Source: a virus
Direction: 5' to 3' (one strand)
Virus record (IMG/VR): IMGVR_UViG_3300035126_000119
Coordinates: 1-21,700 of that record
Length of the DNA stretch: 21,700 bases
Shown in pieces: positions 5,502 through 11,730 of the stretch. The notes under the pieces are model-generated. The model had not been told where the DNA came from. It did no database searches and saw only the letters and a list, made by a program, of their open reading frames with translations. The translations under genes were made by a program, and so were the position numbers. Position 1 is the first letter of the stretch. The number at the start of each line of letters is the position of its first letter.

Positions 5502-6168
5502 AGAGTTCCAATTTATCTCCAACAAACTTTCTAATGTATTTGCCGAGTAGTTTGATGTACTTTGATTTGTCTCTTTCTTCATAGACGACGCATTCTCCAT
5601 TTTCACAAGCCATGATGATTACAAGTTTTTTAACTGAAATACCAGTCAGTTCGTATAGCATACAACCATATGCCATACATTGAACAAAATAGTGTTCAAT
5701 CCACTCGCGTGGTTTTGGTTTTTTAGAAGTCTTAAAGTCAATTATTGCTAACTCGCCGTTATATTCAGCGATACAATCAACTGTCCCAGCAATGCCCAGT
5801 TGCTTACTATATAGGGACCCTTCAAGGGCGTAAATATTATTTATGCGATTTAGATTCGTCTTCGCAATTTTAAACAGAAAATCCGCCATCGGCGCAACAG
5901 ACGGGAGATCTTTATTGTCCAGATAATTTTCCACGAGAGAATGCATATCCGTGCCACGAGAAGTAGCTGCCTTAGTAATCTTCTCCGCTTCCTCCTCACC
6001 AACCTTTTTACGCCAATTGACAAAGATTTCACGATTAAAATGACTCGTAATGGAAGTAATAGAAACTAGTTTAAGTAGTTCTTCTTCATCAGGCACAGAA
6101 TAATATCTTACACCATCAATTGTTTCACGCTCCAACTGGGGGAGTTCAATATCAATATGATTAAACAT
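5488..6168 (-). CDS. PD-(D/E)XK exonuclease (RecB/Cas4-like)
   Basis: A 226-residue protein with the RecB-family nuclease signature in order: ATSRGTDMHSLVE (about 68-80, the G..H motif), a conserved Glu in ALEGSLYS (E116), GIAGTVDCIAEYNGE (D131) and LAIIDFKTSKKP (D144 and K146). These give the metal-binding D-D-K active site and a downstream Tyr/Gln-bearing helix HYFVQCMAYGCMLYEL. It is widespread in T4-like cyanophages and is probably used in recombination or DNA end-processing. ATG 6168 overlaps the phoH stop (TGATG). A TTG just upstream is a weaker start. It lies between phoH and gp33. Confidence 0.8.
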   Translation of the reverse strand: MFNHIDIELPQLERETIDGVRYYSVPDEEELLKLVSITSITSHFNREIFVNWRKKVGEEEAEKITKAATSRGTDMHSLVENYLDNKDLPSVAPMADFLFKIAKTNLNRINNIYALEGSLYSKQLGIAGTVDCIAEYNGELAIIDFKTSKKPKPREWIEHYFVQCMAYGCMLYELTGISVKKLVIIMACENGECVVYEERDKSKYIKLLGKYIRKFVGDKLELYGTK

Positions 6169-9309: not shown

Positions 9310-9407
9310 CACTTTGCTCCAACTAGTTGTGCTAGTTGTGCCTGATGACGACGCTCTTCTTTTTGCTTTTGCTCTTTAATGATTTGAAGGAAGTTAAGTT
9401 TTTTCAC
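9309..9407 (-). CDS. 32-residue charged microprotein with GTG start
   Basis: GTG 9407 to TGA 9309 encodes (M)KKLNFLQIIKEQKQKEERR then HQAQLAQLVGAK, a very basic and Gln/Glu-rich amphipathic helix. The GTG lies in GTGA, overlapping the stop of the 45-residue gene by 4 bases, with AGGAGGGG about 5 nt upstream. Its own stop overlaps the next ATG. Function unknown. The double coupling and the strong Shine-Dalgarno support translation. Confidence 0.6.
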   Translation of the reverse strand: MKKLNFLQIIKEQKQKEERRHQAQLAQLVGAK

Positions 9408-9742: not shown

Positions 9743-9762
9743 ACCTATAAGTAGGTTTTGAT

Positions 9763-9807
9763 CCGTTCCGAGTCGGCTTACTTCCGTCTGGTTTTCCAGA
9801 TGAACGT
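9763..9807 (-). ncRNA. Glutamine-II riboswitch (downstream-peptide motif)
   Basis: The leftward transcript starts almost at once with CGTTCATCTGGAAAACCAGA, then CGGAAGTAAGCCGACT and CGGAACGG. P1 is CGTTC/GAACG, P2 is TCTGG-AAAA-CCAGA, and ACGGAAGTA is the hallmark of the downstream-peptide RNA of cyanobacteria and cyanophages, known to bind L-glutamine through a pseudoknot. Such RNAs normally precede short ORFs, as here. The 3' part (CTCGGAACG) differs from the usual CTGAAGGAACG. CCTACTT shortly downstream could pair with AAGTA and may take part in switching. Confidence 0.72.
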
Positions 9808-9813
9808 AGAGGC

Positions 9814-11076: not shown

Positions 11077-11295
11077 CTACTTTTTCTTCCTTGATCTAAA
11101 GGAAAACTCAAAATAGATGGTTACCTCCCGATTTAGAAAGCAAACCATCTTCTCAAAGATGATATGGAAGGGCTGGGTCTGCTTTCTTTTTCCTCCATTA
11201 AGTATAAGTTCAACGCCACGATTAAAGTGGTCTTCTTTTTTATTTAGGTCAGGATTTGATGATTTGTTGTTCCTTGAGGAATTTGATTGTGTCAA
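11077..11295 (-). CDS. Probable small protein, non-ATG start, overlapping glutaredoxin
   Basis: The frame reads DHFNRGVELILNGGKRKQTQ then PFHIIFEKMVCFLNREVTIY and FEFSFRSRKKK, a balanced protein-like sequence with an amphipathic helix and alternating hydrophobic strands. It fills the gap between glutaredoxin and the membrane protein. No ATG is available before EKM. The most upstream start, TTG 11295, has AGGAGG 5 nt before it but lies inside the glutaredoxin gene, where GGAGGATCC also codes Gly-Gly-Ser. The true start is uncertain, so the coordinates are the longest reading. Function unknown. Confidence 0.45.
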   Translation of the reverse strand: MTQSNSSRNNKSSNPDLNKKEDHFNRGVELILNGGKRKQTQPFHIIFEKMVCFLNREVTIYFEFSFRSRKKK

Positions 11296-11491
11296 CGGAT
11301 CCTCCTAATTTCTTATCGTCACAGATAACCTGTGGGAAAGTTGAACCTTTTCCAAACTCTGCATAAAACTCATCTTTGGTAAAATGCTCATTAAGATTAT
11401 AAACCACAAAGTTACTTCCTGTCAACTCAAGAACTTGTTTGACTTTATAGCAGTATGGGCAATCCTCTTTAGAATATACAGTAAAGTTCAT
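11249..11491 (-). CDS. Glutaredoxin
   Basis: An 80-residue glutaredoxin. The redox motif is C11-P-Y-C14 in VYSKEDCPYCYKVKQVLE. The cis-proline is in STFPQVICDD (about 50-59) and the GSH-binding GG is in KKLGGSVDTIKFL (60-72). Phage glutaredoxins supply electrons to ribonucleotide reductase, which fits with thyX nearby. ATG 11491. A TATAAATT box lies upstream, and upstream of that the strong promoter/terminator RNA at 11526-11671. It heads a leftward gene series. Confidence 0.88.
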   Translation of the reverse strand: MNFTVYSKEDCPYCYKVKQVLELTGSNFVVYNLNEHFTKDEFYAEFGKGSTFPQVICDDKKLGGSVDTIKFLKEQQIIKS

Positions 11492-11513: not shown

Positions 11514-11521
11514 AATTTATA
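11514..11521 (-). promoter_or_regulatory. Possible late promoter box (TATAAATT) for glutaredoxin
   Basis: Minus-strand TATAAATT, one base off the late consensus, 22 bases before ATG 11491 and just after the terminator of the structured RNA. Confidence 0.35.
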
Positions 11522-11525
11522 ATAG

Positions 11526-11550
11526 AAAAAAAGAGGGTATAAAAACCCTC
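11526..11550 (-). terminator. Rho-independent terminator of the structured RNA
   Basis: GAGGGT-loop-ACCCTC followed by seven U in the leftward transcript (A-run at 11526-11532). Confidence 0.85.
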
Positions 11551-11627
11551 CTTATTATACCACCAACTCACCTCTCCCACCACAGAGAAGTGGTCTTCAT
11601 TCCCAAAGTTACAAGGATATTGAAGAC
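11526..11627 (-). ncRNA. Structured ~100-nt RNA with own promoter and terminator (sRNA or attenuator leader)
   Basis: Between the promoter at 11634-11662 and a terminator there is no credible gene; the longest ATG frame is 10 codons. The transcript folds into adjoining helices. Stem 1 is GTCTTCA/TGAAGAC (11627-11621 with 11599-11593, loop of 21). Stem 2 is CACTTCTC/GAGAGGTG (11592-11585 with 11576-11569, loop of 8, one GU) and starts at the very next base. The terminator is GAGGGT/ACCCTC (11550-11545 with 11538-11533) plus seven U. An alternative stem, GGTATAA/TTATACC (11561-11555 with 11542-11536), would exclude the terminator. That fits an attenuator in front of glutaredoxin. I know no matching RNA family. 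Confidence 0.6.
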
Positions 11628-11633
11628 TTGAAT

Positions 11634-11662
11634 ATTATAAAGGAAATTCAAAAGGTTGTCAA
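11634..11662 (-). promoter_or_regulatory. Consensus sigma70 promoter for the structured RNA
   Basis: Minus strand TTGACA (11662-11657), exactly 17 bases, then TATAAT (11639-11634): a perfect consensus at both boxes and spacing. Start near 11627. Confidence 0.85.
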
Positions 11663-11671
11663 CCGGTTGAC
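11658..11671. promoter_or_regulatory. 14-base perfect palindrome over the -35 box (candidate operator)
   Basis: GTCAACCGGTTGAC is its own reverse complement and covers five of the six bases of the -35 box. Such placement is typical for a dimeric repressor site; the binding protein is unknown. Confidence 0.45.
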
Positions 11672-11730
11672 GAAGAGTGTTTTTATGAGTAGACTAGGTT
11701 TGTTGCCGTTGAAGATAAGTTATAACTTAA

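Follow-up and report, generated by a model that had tools for sequence, protein, structure and literature searches.

What does a promoter of full consensus do in a phage genome when it leads into no gene? The question is raised by the 21.7 kb window analysed here (the whole stretch of DNA, an IMG/VR virus record), which is a fragment of a T4-like cyanophage encoding a baseplate tail-tube cap, tail fibres and an NrdC-type glutaredoxin. Among cultured phages, the closest relative found for the stretch was Synechococcus phage S-SRM01, a Serangoonvirus from Serangoon Reservoir in Singapore, with 72% identity over the region and the same glutaredoxin (86% at the amino acid level). A preliminary description of the window had proposed a unit of promoter, structured RNA and terminator, and had offered two functions for it, a free small RNA made early in infection or a riboswitch-like attenuator of glutaredoxin. 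Our analysis recovers that unit both in the window and in homologues. The locus is almost certainly a real, selected and structured RNA gene, and its best explanation as a whole, which we consider the probable one, is that of a small-RNA gene, complete in itself, carried by T4-like cyanophages.

The unit in the window and its homologues

The RNA is intergenic, lies on the same strand as the neighbouring genes and sits where the tail-fibre cluster borders a group of small genes. Comparison of the sequences shows a unit composed of a near-consensus promoter, a hairpin at +1, a GUGGUG hairpin, a G/U-rich single strand and a terminator, with the following features in and beside it.

11657 to 11662, minus strand: -35 hexamer TTGACA (TTGACA in 65 of 72 distinct copies, TTGACG or TTGACT in 5 more)
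11634 to 11639, minus strand: -10 hexamer TATAAT, which together with TTGACA at a spacer of 17 gives 12/12 consensus positions
11526 to 11627, minus strand: small RNA of about 102 nt, inferred +1 at G 11627 (from the fold, 100 homologues and pair counts)
11593 to 11627, minus strand: 5' hairpin, consisting of helix 1, inner helix 2 and the conserved apical loop UUGUAWCUUU
11627-11621 with 11599-11593, minus strand: helix 1 (GUCUUCA/UGAAGAC, 7 bp), beginning at the expected +1
11617-11614 with 11604-11601, minus strand: helix 2 (inner, 4 bp), from fold and pair counts
11569 to 11592, minus strand: second hairpin (11592-11584 with 11577-11569), loop GUGGUG at 11583-11578
11554 to 11568, minus strand: single-stranded G/U-rich linker, AGUUGGUGGUAUAAU in the window, unpaired in the minimum free energy fold
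11526 to 11553, minus strand: intrinsic terminator (hairpin 11553-11530) with T7 tail
11514 to 11521, minus strand: late-promoter motif TATAAATT (T4/S-PM2-type), taken as belonging to glutaredoxin rather than the RNA
11249 to 11491, minus strand: glutaredoxin (NrdC-like; PF00462, E 5.4e-12), the usual downstream neighbour, outside the RNA gene

Homologues were gathered by several routes. A glutaredoxin-based collection of 83 upstream regions (80 IMG/VR loci, the window, S-SRM01 and S-SKS1) held the same RNA and promoter at the same distance in 40, and a scan of all IMG/VR contigs with the first-loop pattern gave at least 119 stretches. A covariance model search yielded 100 matches, representing 70 distinct sequences from IMG/VR cyanophage contigs and S-SRM01, with scores of 81-121 bits, bar one decayed copy at 42 (L050) that has lost its promoter, loop-2 sequence and linker, as expected of a degenerating gene. 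In one lineage (G004, G005, G008 and G009), two good copies lie about 42 kb apart and are joined by a weak third. Beyond these contigs, blastn of divergent forms against 50,697 phage records matched S-SRM01 alone, and full-length scans of ten cyanophage genomes, cultured or single-cell, found the RNA in S-SRM01 only, with scores of no more than 22 bits in S-SKS1, S-T4, Sf-CH5, P-SSM2, DSL-LC03, S-PM2, P-HM2, ACG-2014d and AG-345-L05. Run over species genomes of bacteria and archaea (84,980), the first-loop pattern met six chance matches, none of them cyanobacterial and none accompanied by the rest of the RNA, so that a host origin is not visible.

One well-conserved copy (L107, 2399-2498, minus strand) has no promoter and lies in the 3' region behind another gene, with TTTGACT-17-TATAAT following downstream. 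At least eight contigs have matches with the same score and the same composition, and in such places the RNA may be made by processing or may serve as a terminator.

Several other elements were observed in the window. At about 11680-11730 (minus strand), a short stretch, CGGCAACAAACCTAGTCTACTCATAA, is common to an intergenic place in S-SKS1 and is also present upstream of the RNA in many relatives; it reads as a C-terminal fragment lacking a start, and the tail-fibre cluster may have a recombination boundary here. A glutamine riboswitch (RF01739, 37.2 bits, above the cut-off) lies 1.7 kb downstream of the RNA at 9760-9808 (minus strand), before a 50-aa ORF, and glutamine-riboswitch matches likewise lie downstream of the RNA in L148 and L087 (near or above the cut-off) and, more weakly, in L138 and L116. 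A sub-threshold CRISPR-DR21 match (35.8 bits, cut-off 48) is at 5693-5729 on the plus strand.

Conservation of promoter, fold and loops

The fully consensus sigma-70 promoter that had been claimed (TTGACA-17-TATAAT, 11662-11634, minus strand) matches at 12 of 12 positions. Two perfect promoters of this kind were found in the window, against 0.10 expected from its shuffled sequence, and the second falls within the glutaredoxin gene. The RNA start lies six bases past the -10 box; this distance of 6 nt is kept in 71 of 72 copies and the 17-nt spacer in 70 of 72. Two collections of copies, one chosen by the loop only and the other by the promoter only, carry opposite selection biases, so that each tests the criterion of the other. 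Among the loop-chosen copies (73 distinct, among the matches listed), the promoter scores 12/12 in 61 and 11/12 in 11, with L107 the one copy that has none, and at that placement 0.8% of random 70-mers score 10/12 or better; conversely, all 28 distinct promoter-chosen copies carry the loop-1 motif and GUGGUG. Where two phages have glutaredoxin genes of 65-75% nucleotide identity, their promoter hexamers agree at 96% of positions and their 17-nt spacers at 47%; the corresponding figures are 50% for third codon positions and 82% for the RNA minus its terminator. By these counts and identities, the promoter is under selection, whereas the sequence of its spacer drifts freely. The palindrome noted at the promoter is present in the window, where its 14 nt (GTCAACCGGTTGAC) overlap the -35 hexamer; its conservation with the unit did not hold up, given that it is perfect in only 2 of 72 copies and that GTCAA occurs within 14 nt before the -35 hexamer in 20 of 72, and we therefore place it outside the conserved unit.

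The RNA folds at -37.1 kcal/mol, compared with -23.6 +/- 2.9 for shuffled sequences (z -4.63; 0 of 200 as stable), and four divergent homologues gave z values from -3.6 to -4.4. The 7-bp helix that had been placed at +1 is present, and so is the terminator behind the helices. The second helix does begin at the very next base, as described, although it counts nine pairs, two of them G-U, rather than eight. In the alignment of 70 distinct sequences, 97.1% of the cells at the 23 pairs can pair (93.3% when shuffled), and two-sided changes occur at 10 of the 23 pairs in a total of 84 cells (27.6 +/- 3.6 when shuffled; 0 of 500 shuffles as high), figures that lean towards the structure because the alignment was fitted to the structure of the model. 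Sliding the partners by 1-3 columns lowers pairing to 54-69% and the two-sided cells to 6-33. The raw sequences themselves display covariation, from UCC/GGGA to UCU/GAGA in the first hairpin, from CUCUC/GAGAG to CUUUC/GAAAG in the second and from GGAGGG/CCCUCC to GAGGAG/CUCCUC in the terminator. By helix, a C-G to U-A change is two-sided in 11 sequences in helix 2 and a G-C to A-U change in 3 in helix 1, three pairs of the second hairpin have two-sided changes in 15, 15 and 4 sequences, and the terminator helix, which varies in sequence, has them at 4 of 6 pairs, its pairing being kept despite sequence change and its T run recurring, as in the window, in the aligned family. The compensatory changes that the preliminary description had proposed to seek at homologous loci are thus in place.

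The unpaired parts follow the opposite pattern, in that loop 1 (UUGUAWCUUU), loop 2 (GUGGUG, kept in 66 of 70 distinct copies) and the linker GUUGGUGGU (TTGGTGG exact in 52 of 70) are fixed in sequence while the helices vary. Both the GUGGUG loop and the linker contain GGUGGU.

Two readings in which the RNA itself would have no function of its own, or none as an RNA, can be weighed against this pattern. If the transcript were a short message for a very small reading frame (in the window, for example, ATGAAGACCACT), the ATG that closes the first apical region in most copies would be its start; insertions of one and two bases between the conserved blocks shift the frame of that ATG, the only one in the alignment, from member to member, and in some copies (L053, L002) it is replaced by TTG or ACG, which leaves the coding reading vanishingly improbable. 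If the locus were instead a promoter-terminator insulator around a functionless RNA, separating, for example, early from late transcription, then its most regular parts should be the promoter and terminator, as they are, and the position of the unit at the border of the tail-fibre cluster would suit it. An insulator, however, needs neither a conserved RNA body nor paired changes, and the loops and linker are 82% identical where third codon positions have fallen to 50%, and the helices are maintained through paired changes; we consider this reading very improbable. In the alignments, the small-RNA gene has no conserved reading frame, and its helices are maintained by compensatory changes.

A neighbour of glutaredoxin

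The remaining choice posed at the outset was between a free RNA and a cis-acting attenuator or riboswitch that governs read-through into glutaredoxin. Nearly all copies lie 60-75 nt upstream of the glutaredoxin start, and because most stand directly before that gene, some cis role is possible. The 7-bp alternative stem GGTATAA/TTATACC, described as excluding the terminator, can indeed form in the window; it was not found to be conserved, being exact in only 10 of 72 copies, and no conserved antiterminator was seen among the homologues. Further, copies that have the terminator precede other genes: L139 stands before a glycosyltransferase gene, L104 before another consensus promoter together with a small ORF and a Phd-like antitoxin, and L180 before another ORF. 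In two contigs a 212-aa ORF separates the RNA from glutaredoxin.

The late-promoter motif TATAAATT, which resembles the late promoters TATAAATA of T4 and NATAAATA of S-PM2 (PMC2984593), bears on the same point. It follows the terminator in 67 of 72 copies, and four of the five copies without it (L104, L107, L139, L180) are not located before glutaredoxin, while the fifth (L138) has TTTATAATTA before glutaredoxin. The motif is therefore found behind the terminator only where glutaredoxin comes next, with one exception. Taken together, the other downstream genes, the intervening ORF, the lineage with two copies and the unconserved alternative stem argue that the RNA is its own gene, and that glutaredoxin is, on the evidence of these arrangements, apparently a neighbour with its own late promoter rather than the gene it regulates. 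The attenuator proposed for glutaredoxin thus does not survive the comparison, and we regard it as very improbable. The free small RNA made early is well supported, since promoter, start, fold and terminator form one conserved unit with covarying helices, some copies of which lie away from glutaredoxin.

Two observations concern the surroundings. The 212-aa ORF lies exactly between the terminator and glutaredoxin (L036, 1285-1923; L048, 3352-3990), has no Pfam match and looks like an HNH endonuclease by eye. Inside the glutaredoxin coding sequence of the window, the second 12/12 site (TTGACA-18-TATAAT, 11396-11425, minus strand) coincides with codons that are invariant in 42 distinct sequences obtained with an ad hoc filter (Leu always TTG, Tyr TAT and Asn AAT), while other third positions vary, a pattern that may point to an internal promoter serving the genes downstream.

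Relation to known RNAs and possible action on the host

As the preliminary description had supposed, the RNA belongs to no family in Rfam 15, where neither the window RNA nor seven divergent homologues matched above the gathering cut-off. Nor is it named in the cyanophage literature found, a search that left most subscription journals and supplementary files outside; the RNAs known there are tRNAs, CfrI, wcaG, manA, PhotoRC-II, glnA and abiF-like RNAs. On these two grounds we call it a new RNA family, although of a kind already known, the stand-alone phage small RNA. It shares with GcvB-type RNAs its own promoter, a 5' hairpin, accessible G/U-rich segments and an intrinsic terminator, and differs from GcvB in being phage-borne, about half the length and without sequence relation. 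In enterobacteria, the G/U-rich seed of GcvB pairs with C/A-rich leaders and blocks translation. With wcaG, manA, PhotoRC-II and the glutamine (glnA) riboswitch the RNA has in common that it is structured and recurrent in cyanophage genomes; those four are mRNA leaders, whereas it is a separate transcription unit and matches none of them. CfrI of Synechococcus phage S-PM2 is an antisense RNA of about 225 nt (Millard et al. 2010; in PMC2984593, PMC12197685), antisense to psbA and a homing-endonuclease gene and expressed in lytic infection (PMC2984593, PMC12197685). Both are non-coding RNAs of T4-like cyanophages; unlike CfrI, the present RNA runs antisense to no neighbouring gene, is equipped with a consensus promoter and a terminator of its own and occupies a different locus, and the S-PM2 genome has no match to it. 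Temperate phages encode small RNAs that act on host mRNAs, among them 24B_1 and VpdS (PMC12197685), and these are likewise phage-encoded and thought to act in trans, whereas the phages that share the present RNA, a large set, are T4-like cyanophages and belong to a lytic group.

How might such an RNA act? For their early genes, cyanomyoviruses are believed to rely on sigma-70 sites and on the host polymerase in its unmodified form (PMC2984593). With its promoter, the RNA would be made in large amount by host RNA polymerase early, before the phage-modified (gp55/gp33) late programme, and transcription would stop at its own terminator, leaving a stable transcript about 100 nt long. It is very probably transcribed early as a separate RNA and, with somewhat less assurance, likely to act in trans; that it does so by base pairing is a tentative proposal, made by analogy. 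Since conserved, accessible G/U-rich segments are the anatomy of a seed-bearing small RNA, we propose pairing with C/A-rich leaders. The GUGGUG loop and the linker GUUGGUGGU are likely contact sites on a host RNA or host protein, and could conceivably pair with C/A-rich CACCAC or ACCACCAAC sequences in host mRNA leaders, thereby perhaps blocking translation in the manner of the GcvB seed. Alternatively, the RNA might titrate a host RNA that carries a CACCAC-like or ACCACCAAC-like sequence.

The phages' own gene starts offered no conserved target: in S-SRM01 and the near-complete G001 and G002, predicted pairing is on average the same as for shuffled RNA and the best site differs from one phage to the next, and the leaders of early-type phage genes are not enriched in CACC-like words. 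One leader stands out in S-SRM01, UCAGUUCACACCACUGAACC-AUG before a GP88-family gene (ddG -25.7; 0 of 24 shuffles as low), which is the strongest predicted partner among 348 gene starts and whose hairpin loop, CACCAC, mirrors the GUGGUG loop. As a kissing candidate, the GTTCACACCACTGAAC leader is strong in S-SRM01 only. In 19 other contigs that bear the leader, the RNA does not score above about 22 bits, and the CACCAC leader is accordingly a lead and no evidence. That an abundant immediate-early RNA reprogrammes cyanobacterial translation or photosynthesis mRNAs through GUGGUG-CACCAC loop-loop pairing is, in our estimation, unlikely.

The leader itself is a repeated element. As CTCAGTTCACACCACTGAACC-ATG it occurs in S-SRM01 (L269) at 9333 and 10317 and in L279-L309, directly behind -10-like boxes and with a hairpin whose loop is CACCAC, and it precedes unrelated small genes in many phage contigs (GP88-like, 44-aa, 70-aa and 99-aa ORFs). 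It has no Rfam match.

The invariant loops are equally compatible with protein binding, in which the RNA would serve as a decoy or mimic for a host RNase, RNA chaperone, translation factor or RNA polymerase. Loop 1, loop 2 and the linker hold their sequence while the helices change, GUGGU is present both in a loop and in the linker, and the phages' gene starts share no mRNA target, all of which would suit a protein partner; the 84,980 bacterial and archaeal genomes, in contrast, contain no homologous or look-alike RNA by the loop-1 pattern, and the form in which the RNA is a CsrA sponge fails on an unconserved GGA. We judge protein binding in general possible but rather doubtful, and the specific version in which the invariant loops are the protein contacts and the repeated GGUGGU a doubled binding site is doubtful too.

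Three narrower candidates were rejected. The CsrA sponge drew on a weak RsmZ match in one homologue (26.5 bits, cut-off 44) and fails because the GGA of the first hairpin becomes GAGA in many members. An anti-Shine-Dalgarno decoy would pair GAGGUGA with the 16S 3' end; that segment lies within helix 3, where it changes with compensation and hence is not conserved. A minigene like that of lambda bar (GUG GUA UAA in the linker) is present in some members only, others having GGUUAAU.

Returning to the small-RNA gene, few non-coding RNAs are known from T4-like cyanophages, and the literature covered describes mostly tRNAs and mRNA leaders, besides a single antisense RNA. The covariance model gives annotators a means to mark an element that is now left blank in annotations. 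The RNA probably contributes to the phage's control of its host in the early phase of infection, and, being common to many cyanophages and to the cultured S-SRM01 (on Synechococcus KCZYC6), it provides a handle on host takeover at the level of RNA.
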